DNA from: Akkermansia muciniphila | GTDB taxonomy: Bacteria; Verrucomicrobiota; Verrucomicrobiia; Verrucomicrobiales; Akkermansiaceae | DNA length: 64,000 bases | Direction: 5' to 3' | NCBI RefSeq assembly: GCF_002884975.1 | Contig: NZ_PJKB01000002.1 | Coordinates: 765,369 to 829,368, forward strand | In this document: positions 4,475 through 43,461 of the stretch, in pieces | Position numbering within the stretch: the stretch's first letter is position 1 | Layout: every line of letters begins with the position of its first letter | Notes under the pieces: model-generated | Database searches by the model: none | Seen by the model: only the letters and a program-made list of their open reading frames with translations | What the model was told of the DNA's origin: nothing | Program-made: the position numbers and the translations under genes

Positions 4475-6400
4475 ATGAGTACGGAACATTCCCACGAACA
4501 TTTTCCAGAAGGAGCTTCCTGCTGCGCCGGAGGGTGCTGTTCCGGAAGCTGCTGCGGCTCCGGAGACGCCATCAGGCCGGTTCCCGCCGTGCTGGGCATC
4601 GCCCTTTTCATTGCCGCCCTGGTGCTGGGGGGCGATTCCTGGAGCGGCAGGGCTGCCTACGCGGGCGCCTACCTGCTGATAGGCTGGGATGTATTGAAGG
4701 CGGCTTTTCTGGGGCTGAGGCACGGCCGTGCCATGGATGAAAATTTCCTGATGAGCATTGCCTCCCTGGGGGCGATGTTCCTGGGGGATTATTCCGAGGC
4801 GGTGGGCGTGATGCTTTTTTACCGCGTGGGAGAATACCTTCAGGAGCGCGCGGTGGGCAGTTCCCGCCGGTCCGTGAGCGAACTGATGAATCTGAGGCCC
4901 GAGTTTGTCCATGTGAAAGAGGGCGGAGAAATCCGTGACCTTCCACCTGCGGAGGTGCCGCCCGGTTCCCTGATTGAAGTGCGCCCCGGCGAGCGCGTTC
5001 CTCTGGACGGCGTGGTGACGGGCGGGAATTCCGTGCTGGATACCTCCGCCATGACCGGTGAATCCCTGCCGGTGGAGACCGGGGCCGGAAGCTCCGTGCT
5101 GGCGGGTTGCATCAACGGCCAGGGCGTGCTGGAAGTCCGTACGGAACGGGACTGGCGGCATTCCTCCCTGGCGAGGGTCCAGGAGCTGGTGGAGGCCGCA
5201 TCCGGCCACAAATCCCCGCTGGAAGGAAGATTGTCACGGTTCTCACGCATTTACACGCCGCTGGTGATTTCCATTGCCGTGCTGGTGTTTCTGCTCTATC
5301 CCTTCGTAACGGGGGGAAGCTGGTCTGACGGCCTGTTCCGCGCGCTGGTGCTGCTGGTGATCTCCTGCCCCTGCGCGCTGGTGCTCTCCATTCCCCTGGG
5401 CTTCTTTGCCGGGATAGGTAGGGCCGCGCGGGAGGGAATTCTGCTGAAAGGGAGCAATTACCTGGATGCCCTGCGGAAGGTGAAGACAGTGGTATTTGAC
5501 AAGACGGGAACCTTGACGGAAGGCGTTTTTTCCGTGGATGAAGTGCTCCCCTGTGACGGAGTTTCCCCGGAAACCCTGCTGTACTGGGCGGCGCATGCGG
5601 AGAGTTCCGCCTCCCACCCCTTGGGGCGTTCCATTGTGAAAGCGTATGAAGGCCGTTTGTTCCCGGACCGCGTGGCGGAGCTGGTGGAAGTGACCGGGGG
5701 CGGTGTTTCCGCCCGGGTGGAAGGAAAGGCCGTGCTGGCGGGGAAGAAGGCTTTTCTTCAGGAGGCCGGAATAAGGACAGGAGATGGAGAAGACCGGGGC
5801 GTGACCATTTACGTGGCGCTGGACGGCGTCCTGCTGGGGCGGCTGCGCCTGTCCGACCGGATCAAGCCGGGGGCGGAGCAGGCTGTGCGGGAACTGAGGG
5901 AGCTGGGCGTTTCCAACCTGGTGATGCTGACGGGGGATTCCTCCTCCGCCGGGCCGGAGGTGGGGCGCAGGCTGGGGCTGGATGAGGTGTTCAGCGGGCT
6001 GATGCCGGAGGACAAGCTGGAGCATGTCCGGCGCTTGAAACCGGAAGAGGGGCTGCTCGCCTTTGTGGGGGACGGGATGAATGACGCTCCCTCCCTGGCT
6101 GCCGCGGACATCGGCATAGCCATGGGCGGCGTGGGGTCTGATACGGCCCTCCAGGCGGCTGATATGGTAGTAATGAAGGGCGATCCCGCTGCCGTTCCGC
6201 AGGGGATGCTTTTGTCACGGGCGACGGAGCGCATCATCGTGCAAAACATCATCCTGATTCTGGGCGTCAAGCTTCTGGTGATGGTGCTGGGTATCCTGGG
6301 ACTGGCCGGAATGTGGGCCGCCGTCATGGCGGACGTGGGCGTGTGCCTGCTTGCAGTGGGCAACTCCATGCGCATTTTCCGGGTGAGGCTGGGCGTGTAA
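4475..6400 (+). CDS. Zn2+/Cd2+/Pb2+-type P1B-2 ATPase
   Basis: This heavy-metal efflux pump of the inner membrane has 641 residues. The catalytic core is complete: TGES at 194-197, the transmembrane metal site CPC at 298-300, phosphorylation motif DKTGT with Asp342, the HP dipeptide at 381-382, and GDGMNDAP at 532-539. A Lys in the penultimate helix (Lys599) and an Asp in the last helix (Asp620) are the signature of the Zn/Cd/Pb subclass. Copper pumps do not have it. In place of a ferredoxin-like metal-binding domain, the N-terminus is a short tail rich in His and Cys (His5, 7 and 9, then CC pairs at 16-17, 21-22 and 26-27). No metal-sensing regulator is adjacent. Confidence 0.92.
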   Translation: MSTEHSHEHFPEGASCCAGGCCSGSCCGSGDAIRPVPAVLGIALFIAALVLGGDSWSGRAAYAGAYLLIGWDVLKAAFLGLRHGRAMDENFLMSIASLGAMFLGDYSEAVGVMLFYRVGEYLQERAVGSSRRSVSELMNLRPEFVHVKEGGEIRDLPPAEVPPGSLIEVRPGERVPLDGVVTGGNSVLDTSAMTGESLPVETGAGSSVLAGCINGQGVLEVRTERDWRHSSLARVQELVEAASGHKSPLEGRLSRFSRIYTPLVISIAVLVFLLYPFVTGGSWSDGLFRALVLLVISCPCALVLSIPLGFFAGIGRAAREGILLKGSNYLDALRKVKTVVFDKTGTLTEGVFSVDEVLPCDGVSPETLLYWAAHAESSASHPLGRSIVKAYEGRLFPDRVAELVEVTGGGVSARVEGKAVLAGKKAFLQEAGIRTGDGEDRGVTIYVALDGVLLGRLRLSDRIKPGAEQAVRELRELGVSNLVMLTGDSSSAGPEVGRRLGLDEVFSGLMPEDKLEHVRRLKPEEGLLAFVGDGMNDAPSLAAADIGIAMGGVGSDTALQAADMVVMKGDPAAVPQGMLLSRATERIIVQNIILILGVKLLVMVLGILGLAGMWAAVMADVGVCLLAVGNSMRIFRVRLGV

Positions 6401-6439: not shown

Positions 6440-6466
6440 ATTAAGTCCATTAAGTCCATTAAGTCC
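6440..6466. repeat. Three tandem copies of a 9-bp unit
   Basis: ATTAAGTCC occurs three times head to tail between the P-type ATPase gene and rho. It lies outside any supported gene. A repeat this short is a candidate for slippage-driven copy-number variation between strains. Confidence 0.9.
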
Positions 6467-38289: not shown

Positions 38290-39816
38290 TCAGGAATTCC
38301 TGGTGCCTTCCCCCGTTCCGGGAAGGAAGCGGTAATATACCTCCAGCATCAGCGTAGCAAGGCACTGGCGGTAAATCCGGTCGTTGGCATGCCGGTTCTG
38401 GCTGGTCTGGACAACGCCGCCGGGGCCTCCGAATCCGTTGGGAATGAAACTGCCGTCAGGAGACTGGGCTTTCAGCACCGCGTCACGGAAGGCGCGGTTA
38501 TAGGCCTTCCATACGTCACCGCCGCAGTTCATGGCCGCCTGCACCCCGTAGTAATGCTGGTAGAGGTTGGACGTGGTGTTGCCGGCTTTCCAGTTAAAGG
38601 GCTGGCTGGTATTCTTGAGCATCCAGTCCAGGCCCCTGCGCGCTGTGCCGTCCGAGCCGTTGCCGCACATCTGCAGGGAAAGCACTCCTACGCCCACCAG
38701 GGAGGGCCTGGGTTCGCTGCCGTTCTCCTGATAGGAGAAGAGCCCGTTTGAAAGAGACGTTTTGCGGCAGTACATGGCCGCCCTGTTCAGGGCGGTGCGT
38801 ATTTTGCCCCTGGTGGGCTTGATGCCGCCGTGCTCGGCGGCCTTGAGCGCCTGAATATTCCACCCCGTCACGGAAAGGTCCGTATGGGCGCCGGGGCGCG
38901 TGCTGTAATGATAGGCCCAGCCTCCGTTGGAGTTCTGCCCCTTCATGATCTGGTCCACCGCTTTCACGGCTACTCTCTCCAGATTGGCGATGGTGGAGGC
39001 GTCCATCTGCTTGCACAAGGTGTAGGCCTCGCACAGGGCATAGGTGGCGATGGCGTGGTCATAGCTGACTTCATTCATCTGCGGAACCAGGGAAATGACG
39101 GGAGATTGCATTCCCCGGTCCACCAGGAAGGAGATTCCCTTCAGGACAGTGTCTCCAAAGTCTTCCGAAAGAGGAGTTTCACAATGGGCCAGGTAGGAGA
39201 GCAGGGCGAGCCCCGTCATGGCGCACTTGTAATTCTGTGGGCCGTCTCCCCAGGAACCGTCCTTGTTCTGCTGCTTCTGGAGCCACTTGAGGGATTTGAC
39301 CACGGCTTCCTCGCACTGGGGGGTGCCGCCGTTTTCCGTGATGCGCTTCATGCGGTTGTCCAGGCCGCAGCGTTTGGACAGGATTTCGGGGTTCGGGCCG
39401 CTGGGGCCCGGTCCCTCTCTGTCGTCGAACCCGAAATCAGTGCCGATGTCGATGCCTGACAGGAGCGATTCCGAGGGTTCGTCCATTTCAGTATCCGGAA
39501 TTCTAATGGCTGTATCCAGGGTTGCATCCGTGGCGATGATTCTTACCTGCTGCTCCATGGCGGGACTGCTGGGGCGCTGGGCTTTCTGGACGAGCTCTGG
39601 TTTTTCAGGTTCCTCCGTCCCTTTTTCCACAACCTCCGGGTAAACGATCGTGGCCGGAGGTTCCGGGAGGAAGGTGATGATATTGACCAGATAGAGCAGG
39701 AGGCTCATCATGGCGGCGCCGAGGACGGAAACGGATACCGCCGCCGCCAGGTTTTTAACGCGCTGTCTTTTCAGCTCCGCCAGGGCGTCTTCCGTACTTT
39801 CAATATGCAGGCTCAT
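38290..39816 (-). CDS. Membrane-anchored prenyltransferase/squalene-cyclase-fold protein, copy 1
   Basis: This 508-residue protein has a basic cytoplasmic N-terminus (begins MSLHIEST), one membrane helix (about 25-47), a Pro/Glu-rich periplasmic linker to about 160 and an alpha-toroid domain. The toroid shows QW-like repeats (KSLKWLQKQQNKDGSWG near 190), a central DLSVTGWNIQALKAAEHGG and a late QSPDGSF. The DxDD acid motif of true squalene cyclases is missing, and a periplasmic site would be odd for terpene cyclisation. A binding or complement-like role is thus as likely as catalysis. It is the most divergent of three tandem copies in its N-terminal third, but its C-terminal part closely matches copy 3. 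Confidence 0.82.
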   Translation of the reverse strand: MSLHIESTEDALAELKRQRVKNLAAAVSVSVLGAAMMSLLLYLVNIITFLPEPPATIVYPEVVEKGTEEPEKPELVQKAQRPSSPAMEQQVRIIATDATLDTAIRIPDTEMDEPSESLLSGIDIGTDFGFDDREGPGPSGPNPEILSKRCGLDNRMKRITENGGTPQCEEAVVKSLKWLQKQQNKDGSWGDGPQNYKCAMTGLALLSYLAHCETPLSEDFGDTVLKGISFLVDRGMQSPVISLVPQMNEVSYDHAIATYALCEAYTLCKQMDASTIANLERVAVKAVDQIMKGQNSNGGWAYHYSTRPGAHTDLSVTGWNIQALKAAEHGGIKPTRGKIRTALNRAAMYCRKTSLSNGLFSYQENGSEPRPSLVGVGVLSLQMCGNGSDGTARRGLDWMLKNTSQPFNWKAGNTTSNLYQHYYGVQAAMNCGGDVWKAYNRAFRDAVLKAQSPDGSFIPNGFGGPGGVVQTSQNRHANDRIYRQCLATLMLEVYYRFLPGTGEGTRNS

Positions 39817-39991
39817 GGATGGGATGGGGTTTGATTAGGATTTCACCATCCCTCCAAGCCTGTGCAGATTCAAGCATGAAATTTATAATATGCTTGTATT
39901 TAGTGTGTTGTTATCAATTTGTTACTTAGGGAGAGCTGGGTTGCCGGAGAAGAGGGGCTGCCGTCACGCGCCGGAGGCGGCAGGGAAATGA

Positions 39992-40026
39992 AAAGCCCTC
40001 TTTCCCCGGAAGGAAAAGAGGGCTTT
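39992..40026 (-). terminator. Terminator after copy 2 of the triplicated family
   Basis: AAAGCCCTCTTT (39992-40003) faces AAGAGGGCTTT (40016-40026), giving a stem of about 11 bp. The T tract on the minus strand is short (TTTT), but the hairpin lies 20 nt past the stop codon at 40047. Confidence 0.75.
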
Positions 40027-40046
40027 AAAGAATCCGGTGAATGGCG

Positions 40047-41549
40047 TCAGGAATTCTTGGTGCCTTCACCCGTACCGGGCAGGAAGCGGTAGTAGGTTTC
40101 CAGCATCAGCGTAGCCAGGCACTGGCGGTAGATGCTTTCCGACTTGTTAGTCAGGCCGGAAACGTACCCGACGTCATTTTTCCTGAAGCTGCCGTCCGCA
40201 TTCTGTCCGCTGAGCACGGCGTCACGGAATGCCTTGTTGTAGGAGGTCCATACATCGCCGCCGCGGTTCATGGCCGCCTGAACGCAGTAGTAGTGCATGT
40301 AAAGGTTGCTCTTGACGTTTTCCGTGCCGGAACCCTGTCCCCACTGGAGGGTTTTGACGTTGTTCTTGATCCAGTCCAGACCCTTGCGGGCCGCGCTGTC
40401 GGAACCGTTTCCGGTCATTTGCAGGGAGAGCACGCCCACGCCCACCAGGGAGGAACGGGGCATGTTGCCGTTTTCCTTGTAGGCGAATTTGCCGTCCGGC
40501 ATCACGTTCTTGCGCACGTAGCTGGAAGCCTTGCGCAGCGTGGAGCGTATTTCACCCTTGGTGGGCTTGATGCCGCCGTGTTCCGCCGCCTTGAGCGCCT
40601 GGACGTTCCACCCCGTGACGGAAAGGTCAATGTCCGGATTGATCTTGTTATTATAGCTGTAGCCCCAGCCCCCGTTAGGGCATTGGGCTTCTATGATCCT
40701 GTCCACGGCCTTGATCACGACTTTTTCCAGATTGGCGATGGAAGGGATGTCCATCTGCTTGCAGAAGGTATAGGCCTCGCACAGGGCGTAAGTGGCCACG
40801 GCGTGGTCATAGCAGATTTCCTTCAAGGCGGGTTTTTCGGAAATCACGGGATTCTTCATTCCCAGGTCCACGAGGAAGGAAATGCCTTTCAGGACGTTTT
40901 CCCCGAATTCCTCGGAAAGGGGCGTTTCACAGTGGGCCAGGTAGGCCAGCAGGGAAATTCCGGTCATGGAAGCGCGGAACTGGCCCTCACCCCAGGAACC
41001 GTCCTTGTTCTGCTGCTTTTTAAGCCAGCGGAGGGATTTGACCACGGCTTCCTCACACTGGGGAGTGCCGCCGTTTTCCGTGATGCGCTTCATGCGGTCG
41101 TTCAGGTCGCACCGCTTGGAAAGAATGCCGGGAATGCCTCCTCCGTCTCCGTCCCCCGTGCCGGTGCCGAAGCCGTCGCCGATGTCGATGCCCATGGAAA
41201 GCTCTTCCGAGGGGACTTCCACTTCAATGTCCGGGTTGACTACCGCCACATCCGCCGTAGCAACGGCGGCAATGACCTTCACCTGAGCGGCGGTGGAGGA
41301 GCTGCTGGGCCGCTGGGTGGTTTGGGTCACTTCCGGGGTGTCAATATCCGGATTGTCGCCTTCCTGGGTGGCATAAGCCACCATGGGCGGATCTTCCGGA
41401 ATGGCGACGATGATGTGTACCAGATAAAGGAGAAGGCCCATGAGGGCAACGCCGAGGAAGGAGACGGAGAAGGCGGCGGTCAGCGTCTTGACGCGCTGCT
41501 TCTTCAGTTCCGTAAGGGCTTCATCGGTACTTTCAATATGGAGACTCAT
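40047..41549 (-). CDS. Membrane-anchored prenyltransferase-fold protein, copy 2
   Basis: This 500-residue protein has the same architecture as its neighbours: basic N-terminus, membrane helix (about 25-47), an acidic and Gly/Asp-rich linker (GDGFGTGTGDGDGGG near 125-140), then the toroid with KKQQNKDGSWG and DLSVTGWNVQALKAAEHGG. Residues 1 to about 185 are almost identical to copy 3 (also at the DNA level), while the rest is the most divergent of the three. The Cys of the SKRC and QCEEA motifs are shared by all copies and may form a disulfide in the periplasm. Function unknown. Confidence 0.82.
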   Translation of the reverse strand: MSLHIESTDEALTELKKQRVKTLTAAFSVSFLGVALMGLLLYLVHIIVAIPEDPPMVAYATQEGDNPDIDTPEVTQTTQRPSSSSTAAQVKVIAAVATADVAVVNPDIEVEVPSEELSMGIDIGDGFGTGTGDGDGGGIPGILSKRCDLNDRMKRITENGGTPQCEEAVVKSLRWLKKQQNKDGSWGEGQFRASMTGISLLAYLAHCETPLSEEFGENVLKGISFLVDLGMKNPVISEKPALKEICYDHAVATYALCEAYTFCKQMDIPSIANLEKVVIKAVDRIIEAQCPNGGWGYSYNNKINPDIDLSVTGWNVQALKAAEHGGIKPTKGEIRSTLRKASSYVRKNVMPDGKFAYKENGNMPRSSLVGVGVLSLQMTGNGSDSAARKGLDWIKNNVKTLQWGQGSGTENVKSNLYMHYYCVQAAMNRGGDVWTSYNKAFRDAVLSGQNADGSFRKNDVGYVSGLTNKSESIYRQCLATLMLETYYRFLPGTGEGTKNS

Positions 41550-41699
41550 AGAGGGACGTGTCTGGTTGGTGTACCTGCAAATGCTCCCGCATCCTTGAAA
41601 ATGGAGGAGAATTGCCAGGGTACGGGTAAATGCTGCTGGCCTGCCTGTTCACGAGGCTGGCAGCATACTAAAACCAGACGCGCCGGTCTGTCAATCAGA

Positions 41700-43223
41700 T
41701 TAGGAATTCTTGGTGCCTTCACCCGTACCGGGGAGGAAGCGGTAATACACCTCCAGCATCAGCGTAGCCAGGCACTGGCGGTAAATCTTGTCATTGATGC
41801 TGCCCCCGTTGGTGTTCACGAGGCCCCCCGGGCCGGGGAAGCCGTTCGGGGCAAAGCTGCCGTCGGAAGACTGTGCGCCAAGGGTGGAATCCCGGAAAGC
41901 CCTGTTATAAGCCTTCCATACGTCCCCGCCGCGGTTCATGGCCGCCTGCACGCCGTAATAATGCTGGTAAAGGTTGGAGGAAGTGTTGTTCGCCTTCCAG
42001 TTAAAGGGCTGGCTGGTATTCTTGAGCATCCAGTCCAGGCCCTTGCGCGCCGCGCTGTCGGAACCGTTTCCGCACATTTGCAGGGAGAGCACGCCCACGC
42101 CCACCAGGGAGGGGCGGGCCGTGGCGTCTTCCCGGCCTTCCTGCATGTAGGTGAACAGGCCGTCAGGCTTGCCGCACTTGCGGCAGTAGGAGGCCGCCTT
42201 GCGCAGGGCGGTGCGTATTTCACCCTTGGTGGGCTTGATGCCGCCGTGCTCCGCCGCCTTGAGCGCCTGGATGTTCCACCCCGTCACGGAAAGGTCCGTA
42301 TGGGCGCCTGCCTTGGTATTGTAATTATAGGCCCAGCCGCCGTCCACATTCTGGTTGTCCAGAATCTTGTCCACGGCCTTGATGACGACTTTTTCCAGGT
42401 TGGTGATGGAGGGGATGTCCATCTGCTTGCAGAAGGTGTAGGCCTCGCACAGGGCGTAGGTGGCCACGGCGTGGTCATAGCTGACCTCATTCCTCTGCGG
42501 TACCAGGGAAAGGACGGGGTTCTTCACGCCCAGGTCCACCAGGAAGGAAATGCCTTTCAGGACGGTTTCTCCAAAGTCTTCGGAAAGGGGCGTCTCACAG
42601 TGGGCCAGGTAGGAGAGCAGGGCGAGCCCCGTCATGGCGCACTTGTAATTCTGGGGGGTTCCGCCCCAGGAGCCGTCCTTGTTCTGCTGCTTCTGAAGCC
42701 ACTTGAGGGATTTGACCACGGCTTCCTCACACTGGGGGGTGCCGCCGTTTTCCGTGATGCGCTTCATGCGGTCGTTCAGGTCGCACCGCTTGGAGATGAT
42801 GCCGGGAATGCCGCCTCCGTCGCCGTCCCCCGTGCCGGTGCCGAAGCCGTCGCCGATGTCAATGCCCATGGAAAGCTCTTCCGAGGGGACTTCCACCTCA
42901 ATGTCCGGATTGACGACGGCCACATCCGCAGACGCTACGGCGGCAATGACCTTCACCTGCGCGGCGGTGGAGGAGCTGCTGGGCCGCTGGGTGGTCTGGG
43001 TCACTTCCGGGGTGTCAATATCCGGATTGTCGCCTTCCTGGGTGGCATAAGCCACCATGGGCGGATCTTCCGGAATGGCGACGATGATATGAACCAGATA
43101 AAGGAGAAGGCCCATGAGGACAACGCCGAGGAAGGAGACGGAGAAGGCGGCGGCCAGCGTCTTGACGCGCTGCTTCTTCAGTTCCGTAAGGGCTTCTTCT
43201 GTACTTTCAATGTGCAGGCTCAT
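41700..43223 (-). CDS. Membrane-anchored prenyltransferase-fold protein, copy 3 (mosaic)
   Basis: This 507-residue protein looks like a hybrid of the other two. Its N-terminal part up to the QCEEAVVKSL region matches copy 2 nearly residue for residue. From about residue 190 it follows copy 1 instead: CAMTGLALLSYLAHCETPLS, TSQPFNWKA, NLYQHYYGVQAAMN and PNGFxGPGG are shared with copy 1 but not with copy 2. It has one membrane helix and a periplasmic toroid. All three copies end in RFLPGTGEGT(K/R)NS. It is probably transcribed first in the array, from a TATACT-type -10 at 43249-43254. Confidence 0.82.
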   Translation of the reverse strand: MSLHIESTEEALTELKKQRVKTLAAAFSVSFLGVVLMGLLLYLVHIIVAIPEDPPMVAYATQEGDNPDIDTPEVTQTTQRPSSSSTAAQVKVIAAVASADVAVVNPDIEVEVPSEELSMGIDIGDGFGTGTGDGDGGGIPGIISKRCDLNDRMKRITENGGTPQCEEAVVKSLKWLQKQQNKDGSWGGTPQNYKCAMTGLALLSYLAHCETPLSEDFGETVLKGISFLVDLGVKNPVLSLVPQRNEVSYDHAVATYALCEAYTFCKQMDIPSITNLEKVVIKAVDKILDNQNVDGGWAYNYNTKAGAHTDLSVTGWNIQALKAAEHGGIKPTKGEIRTALRKAASYCRKCGKPDGLFTYMQEGREDATARPSLVGVGVLSLQMCGNGSDSAARKGLDWMLKNTSQPFNWKANNTSSNLYQHYYGVQAAMNRGGDVWKAYNRAFRDSTLGAQSSDGSFAPNGFPGPGGLVNTNGGSINDKIYRQCLATLMLEVYYRFLPGTGEGTKNS

Positions 43224-43248
43224 GCAGTAATAGGAGGTTCCTGGCCGT

Positions 43249-43254
43249 AGTATA
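43249..43254 (-). promoter_or_regulatory. Candidate -10 element upstream of copy 3
   Basis: TATACT on the minus strand lies 25 nt before the ATG at 43223, with an AGGAACCTCC sequence in between. No good -35 is found at 17 nt. Confidence 0.35.
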
Positions 43255-43426: not shown

Positions 43427-43461
43427 AAAAAACGCCCTGCCATGAATTTCATGGCAGGGCG
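43427..43461 (-). terminator. Terminator of galE
   Basis: A 14-bp perfect inverted repeat (43433-43446 with 43448-43461, one base between) is followed on the minus strand by six T. It lies 33 nt past the galE stop. Confidence 0.9.

Follow-up and report, generated by a model that had tools for sequence, protein, structure and literature searches.

Concerted evolution of tandem paralogues is generally recognized when one segment is homogenized within a genome and the trees of different segments conflict. The three tandem genes described here (A, B, and C) share these features, but their homogenization is largely limited to a module encoding a membrane anchor, the heads remain distinct, and the pattern occurs in more than one genus. 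At the protein level, the closest described systems are the C-terminal toroid of squalene-hopene cyclases (PF13243) and class II terpene cyclases (1sqc, 8paj, and MstE), with which A, B, and C share an alpha6/alpha6 toroid and QW-like repeats. Unlike squalene-hopene cyclases, however, they carry an N-terminal transmembrane (TM) anchor and a long linker, contain a single toroid without a DxDD motif, and are predicted to be periplasmic. A study of bile tolerance in the type strain MucT listed six "terpene cyclase" genes (RS02875, RS03775/03780, RS06010/06015, and RS10605); RS06010/06015, counted as "hopanoid biosynthesis" genes in its model, were slightly upregulated in ox-bile (log2FC 0.26-0.27) (PMC7671984).

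Our preferred reading, to which we assign a probability of roughly 0.8, is that A, B, and C are anchored, specialized toroid paralogues in which the B and C anchors evolve in concert through recombination, while the heads are kept distinct.

A tandem toroid locus in Akkermansia

The window of 64,000 nucleotides analyzed here comes from G000, a 2.90 Mb Akkermansia genome. At the coordinates given in the initial annotation, its minus strand carries three intact ORFs arranged in tandem: gene A (38290..39816; 508 aa), with its own divergent anchor and an A-type head, gene B (40047..41549; 500 aa), and gene C (41700..43223; 507 aa), with a B-type anchor and a C-type toroid head. The motif DLSVTGWN(I/V)QALKAAEHGG, proposed to be invariant, was found in all three. 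The C-B-A array is flanked by galE upstream and by genes for STAS and DUF2851 proteins downstream, and a genome search recovered only these three full-length copies in G000. Consensus matches alone identified a promoter-like TTGACA-18-TAGTAT directly 5' of B (41665..41694, minus strand) and two terminator-like hairpins on the minus strand, one 3' of galE and 5' of C (43433..43461) and the other 3' of B and 5' of A (39996..40013). A 1069-aa open frame runs antisense across B, the intergenic region, and C (40041-43250, plus strand); it is most likely a by-product of the codon composition of the coding strand. A role in anti-phage defence was also considered and rejected, as PADLOC returned no match for A, B, or C, nor for the STAS and DUF2851 neighbours.

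Among 76 Akkermansia genomes, one per species, close relatives of the full-length gene were present in 13 (G000 included), with one additional distant match in G015; ten related genomes formed the comparison set for recombination. In the human-associated group, one to three copies occupy the same site between galE and STAS-DUF2851. Gene A is missing from MucT-like genomes, including the single-contig genome G114 (2,664,102 bp; C and B present), which we take to be that of the type strain MucT. A plasmid collection yielded only one toroid, a distant one from Planctomyces.

The GH95 neighbour of the locus is Amuc_1120, which anchors the Amuc_1123/1124 numbering (PMC10886448), and a fosmid gene table places Amuc_1123/1124 beside galE, STAS, and DUF2851 (PMC3861447); this neighbour and the table order together indicate that the MucT orthologues of B and C are probably Amuc_1123 (AMUC_RS06010) and Amuc_1124 (AMUC_RS06015), respectively. 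Toroid loci lie at 617, 820, 1345, and 2414 kb in G114, and the gene order and pairing reported in PMC7671984 match them, which likewise suggests that RS06010/06015 are B and C. A second adjacent pair of toroid genes in MucT (G114:C1:819761-821083; ~410 aa) is probably AMUC_RS03775/03780. In our literature search, Amuc_1123/1124 appeared only in the fosmid gene table.

Two copies are frameshifted, namely B in G004 and A in G037. The former, which comes from a single-contig assembly, is broken by a small change that does not involve a homopolymer (L045 near 6450-6459), and the latter breaks at a run of nine G in a low-coverage metagenome-assembled genome (MAG; L047 near 4980-4990). Phase variation at this run was considered and rejected: gene A of G004 has no such run at the same place, so a poly-G switch is not conserved here.

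Recombination among A, B, and C

The mosaic relationship noticed in the initial annotation is real. Overall nucleotide identity in a codon alignment was 70% for A/B, 77% for A/C, and 83% for B/C, but these averages conceal a sharp break. Over alignment codons 1-170, B/C identity was 94.8%, falling to 80, 80, and 70% in successive segments, whereas A/C identity rose from 67.5% to 84, 79, and 79%. C had been described as nearly identical to B over its first 185 or so residues; the near-identity held, and the sliding-window profile placed the break at codon ~170-178 rather than revealing uniform divergence. The homogenized segment comprises codons 1-177 in both genes (C, 42693..43223; B, 41019..41549; both minus strand), as delimited in B by the identity profile and trees; from hydropathy and charge in C, it is predicted to encode the cytoplasmic tail, a TM helix (residues ~25-50), a Pro/Ser/Gly linker, and the first toroid helix. 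The breakpoint zone of C, in which B/C identity falls and A/C identity climbs, lies at 42654..42701 (minus strand; codons ~175-190) in the first long loop.

Beyond this zone, C is patchy: most of it resembles A, parts resemble B, and the head has drifted away from both of them. In C, the sequence CAMTGLALLSYLAH spans 42600-42641, and A carries it at 39184-39225; these positions are close to those first quoted for this match, and identity there was 92% for A/C versus 73% for B/C. Runs of shared polymorphic sites reached 42 for B/C and 17 for A/C, whereas 2000 shuffles never gave runs longer than 18 and 11, respectively (p<=0.0005). Wherever A, B, and C are all present, the anchor of C is B-like and its head is nearer to A than to B; because this combination is found in the species examined, the mosaic is old. 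What had been viewed as a mosaic of A and B thus reflects old descent with later patches, and not a single fresh splice in this genome.

The same contrast holds within every species that carries both copies, with B/C identity of 93.8-98.2% in the anchor and 66-83% in head segments, and no fixed difference separates B from C in the anchor. The conserved protein sequence of the B and C anchors would also be expected from an old triplication without recombination, in which the anchor was merely more constrained than the head. Synonymous sites, however, are homogenized as well, indicating copying between genes and not selection on the protein: B/C dS was 0.088 in the anchor and 0.999 in the head in MucT, and 0.195 and 0.524 in the window. 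The MucT value compares with a dS of 0.46-0.61 between its anchors and the orthologous anchors of the window; the window value was lower than its dS to G017 (0.34-0.36) and not lower than that to the close relative G056 (0.11-0.20). In anchor trees, B largely paired with C by species (support: MucT, 99/94; G116, 100/98; G017, 94/93), and monophyly was rejected by AU tests for both B anchors (p 1.7e-41) and C anchors (p 1.2e-11), whereas head trees grouped sequences by copy type, with all B heads in one clade (98/100). Together with the highly divergent anchor of A, these results leave a history without recombination scarcely credible.

The grouping of anchors by species is nevertheless not complete. 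In the species group of the window (G000, G056, and G109), the anchors of B cluster apart from those of C, in a neighbouring group. No full homogenization is therefore seen there since these genomes split, and the process is episodic; the last homogenization in this group seems to predate the split.

We also considered whether the mosaic is an artefact of assembling repeats, given that some MAG contigs terminate inside these genes (G047 and G053). The pattern is, however, present in the single-contig genomes G114 (MucT), G109, G116, G004, and G052, and in other genera as well, so we regard such an origin as highly improbable.

More recent events are also visible. In G116, a single-contig genome of 3.17 Mb, the head of A is 100% identical to that of C over ~1 kb. 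Codons 151-270 of B are 100% identical to A in G053, and codons ~331-450 of A are 99-100% identical to C in G037, although both of these tracts (two of the three 100% tracts) come from short-read MAGs in which chimeric assembly is possible. G052 retains a single fused C/B copy: compared with L041 (G115), to which its flanks are 96.8-98.9% identical, the last 150 nt upstream are 100% C and the 3' part is B, with the switch from C to B at gene nt ~506-532, the usual breakpoint. Judging from these sequences, G052 lost C by a crossover between C and B. Homogenized synonymous sites, conflicting trees, 100% identical tracts, and this crossover deletion strongly support the gene conversion or unequal crossing-over between tandem copies that the initial annotation had proposed, and place that claim on firmer ground.

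The sequences thus show that recombination has time and again replaced the anchor segment of B with that of C, or the reverse, from the start codon to codon ~170-178. Now and then a longer event rewrites a head (that of A from C, or that of B from A) or removes a copy. The machinery would be ordinary homologous recombination, presumably halting where the head loops differ too much.

The initial annotation had further connected the mosaic to antigenic or specificity variation. In this view, conversion would produce novel heads on which immune or ligand selection acts. Head replacements do occur (G116, G053, and G037), copy number ranges from one to three, and A evolves fastest (dN/dS of 0.34-0.37 in the anchor and 0.11-0.17 in the head). 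On the other hand, dN/dS of orthologous B and C heads was 0.01-0.10 as whole-domain averages, a range that points to strong purifying selection, and conversion chiefly homogenizes the anchor, erasing differences. The locus has three intact ORFs and no silent donor cassettes, and the MucT genome was reported to be stable over 1,000 generations, with no change described at this pair, as judged by Illumina sequencing only (PMC13055324). With both diversifying selection and donor cassettes lacking, this part of the earlier claim is not supported, and we consider antigenic or specificity variation improbable.

Predicted architecture and the terpene cyclase assignment

Under our preferred reading, each paralogue would be a periplasmic protein anchored in the inner membrane, in which a short tail in the cytoplasm is followed by a single TM helix, a flexible linker rich in Pro, Ser, and Gly, and one alpha6/alpha6 head. 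A hydrophobic N-terminal stretch (residues ~22-53) is preceded by a basic patch of the KKQRVK type, and no lipobox was found in the first 40 residues; by the positive-inside rule, this suggests an N-in orientation with a periplasmic head. AlphaFold2 predicted a 12-helix alpha6/alpha6 toroid for residues 163-496 of C, within a head spanning residues 163-507 (41703..42737, minus strand), and the same fold with better confidence (mean pLDDT 80.1, pTM 0.87) for the head of B (residues 163-500; 40050..41063, minus strand). Foldseek ranked squalene-hopene cyclases first (best E 1.6e-7), followed by other class II cyclases, GH76 mannanases, and AprG. Hydropathy, charge, and these predictions are consistent with the membrane-anchored, periplasmic alpha-toroid described at the outset.

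Long and short loops alternate in the predicted heads. Fixed differences between B and C affect 48 of the 100 residues in long loops, 20 of the 201 in helices, and none of the 24 in short loops, placing B/C divergence mostly on one face of the toroid. Such loop enrichment is common among paralogues generally, the structure is a prediction, and in the better model the two loop faces did not differ significantly for A/C (p 0.46). An alignment of 33 family members has 65 invariant residues, among which Y249, D310, S312, Y419, Y422, and Y423 are predicted to lie at inner-helix tips beside the long loops. The pairing of a conserved pocket with a rim that varies suggests that the heads share a chemistry or mode of binding but differ in specificity. 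Differences in the long loops of one face around conserved polar tips, combined with the purifying selection on B and C, lead us to propose that the heads may be specialized for different ligands or substrates.

A further question is whether A, B, and C are terpene cyclases of a hopanoid pathway, as their MucT orthologues have been treated (PMC7671984). They match PF13243 above the cut-off (37-47 bits), their nearest folds are squalene-hopene cyclases, and the genome contains two squalene/phytoene synthase-like genes (C1:1186953-1187705 and C2:288622-289248). However, all three lack the catalytic acid motif DxDD (D.DD) and have a single toroid domain in a head predicted to be periplasmic, whereas the alpha/alpha toroid fold and QW-like motifs are retained in the predicted structures. 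The full-length cyclase models TIGR01507 and TIGR01787 scored 21-32 bits against cut-offs of 431 and 323, and MucT has no PF13249 match above the cut-off. Canonical squalene-hopene cyclization by A, B, or C thus appears unlikely from these sequences; a hopanoid role of the type-strain orthologues is unsupported by sequence, and we rejected identity as hopanoid cyclases as an improbable account of these genes. No full-length squalene-hopene cyclase was seen in G000, and our literature search found no paper pairing Akkermansia with the phrase squalene-hopene cyclase. Within the heads, there is also a weak profile match to the SCO2321 family membrane protein (NF053823; 41 bits for A and C, 26 bits for B), far below the curated cut-off of 300.

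The anchor in other genera and its significance

Other genera of the wider family (L071-L097) also commonly encode anchored toroids, 480-510 aa in length. Of the 60 genomes and 16 genera sampled, 48 and 14, respectively, were positive for the anchor alone. Five tandem toroid pairs from other genera were compared: anchors were 98-100% identical and heads 56-86% in L078, and 88-99% and 57-88% in L090; the contrast was weaker in L079 and absent in L088 and L093.

The anchor is also found with other heads. Across Akkermansia, anchors of the MSLHIE type are fused to PA14-like heads (e.g., L055:3139-4413 in G000, L058, and L059), and in G013, six PA14-like genes lie in tandem (L058:4848-13614), some neighbours having near-identical anchors and divergent heads. 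In copies 2-3 of this array, identity was 84-98% over the anchor and then 46-78%. These proteins share with A, B, and C a homologous anchor/linker of 140 residues, with anchors homogenized between some L058 copies, but bear in place of the toroid a PA14-like head, matched at or below the Pfam cut-off.

One tentative explanation, which we consider rather unlikely although it deserves mention, is that this family-wide 140-residue anchor, which would bear heads as varied as several toroid types and PA14-like domains, docks tandem copies onto one shared envelope partner, so that recombination keeps the anchors alike because all dock on that partner; the array would then form a multi-head periplasmic complex for sensing or binding, with heads of separate conserved specificities. 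A conserved operon partner in other genera was considered and rejected: when the ORFs of 20 distant loci were clustered, the toroid was the only gene that most of the loci had in common. ExbB/ExbD-like genes, named by sequence appearance, lie near the toroid in three loci only (L081, L090, and L092).

The absence of DxDD from these anchored, single toroids means that the "hopanoid biosynthesis" assignment (PMC7671984) needs retesting. The locus also cautions against basing phylogeny or strain typing on the 5' halves of these genes. The genes occur in human-associated Akkermansia, the type strain MucT included, and the locus is a clear natural case in which recombination between tandem paralogues acts chiefly to homogenize their anchor module, a pattern repeated beyond a single genus. 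It thereby offers a clean system for studying the evolution of arrays with homogenized anchors and specialized heads.
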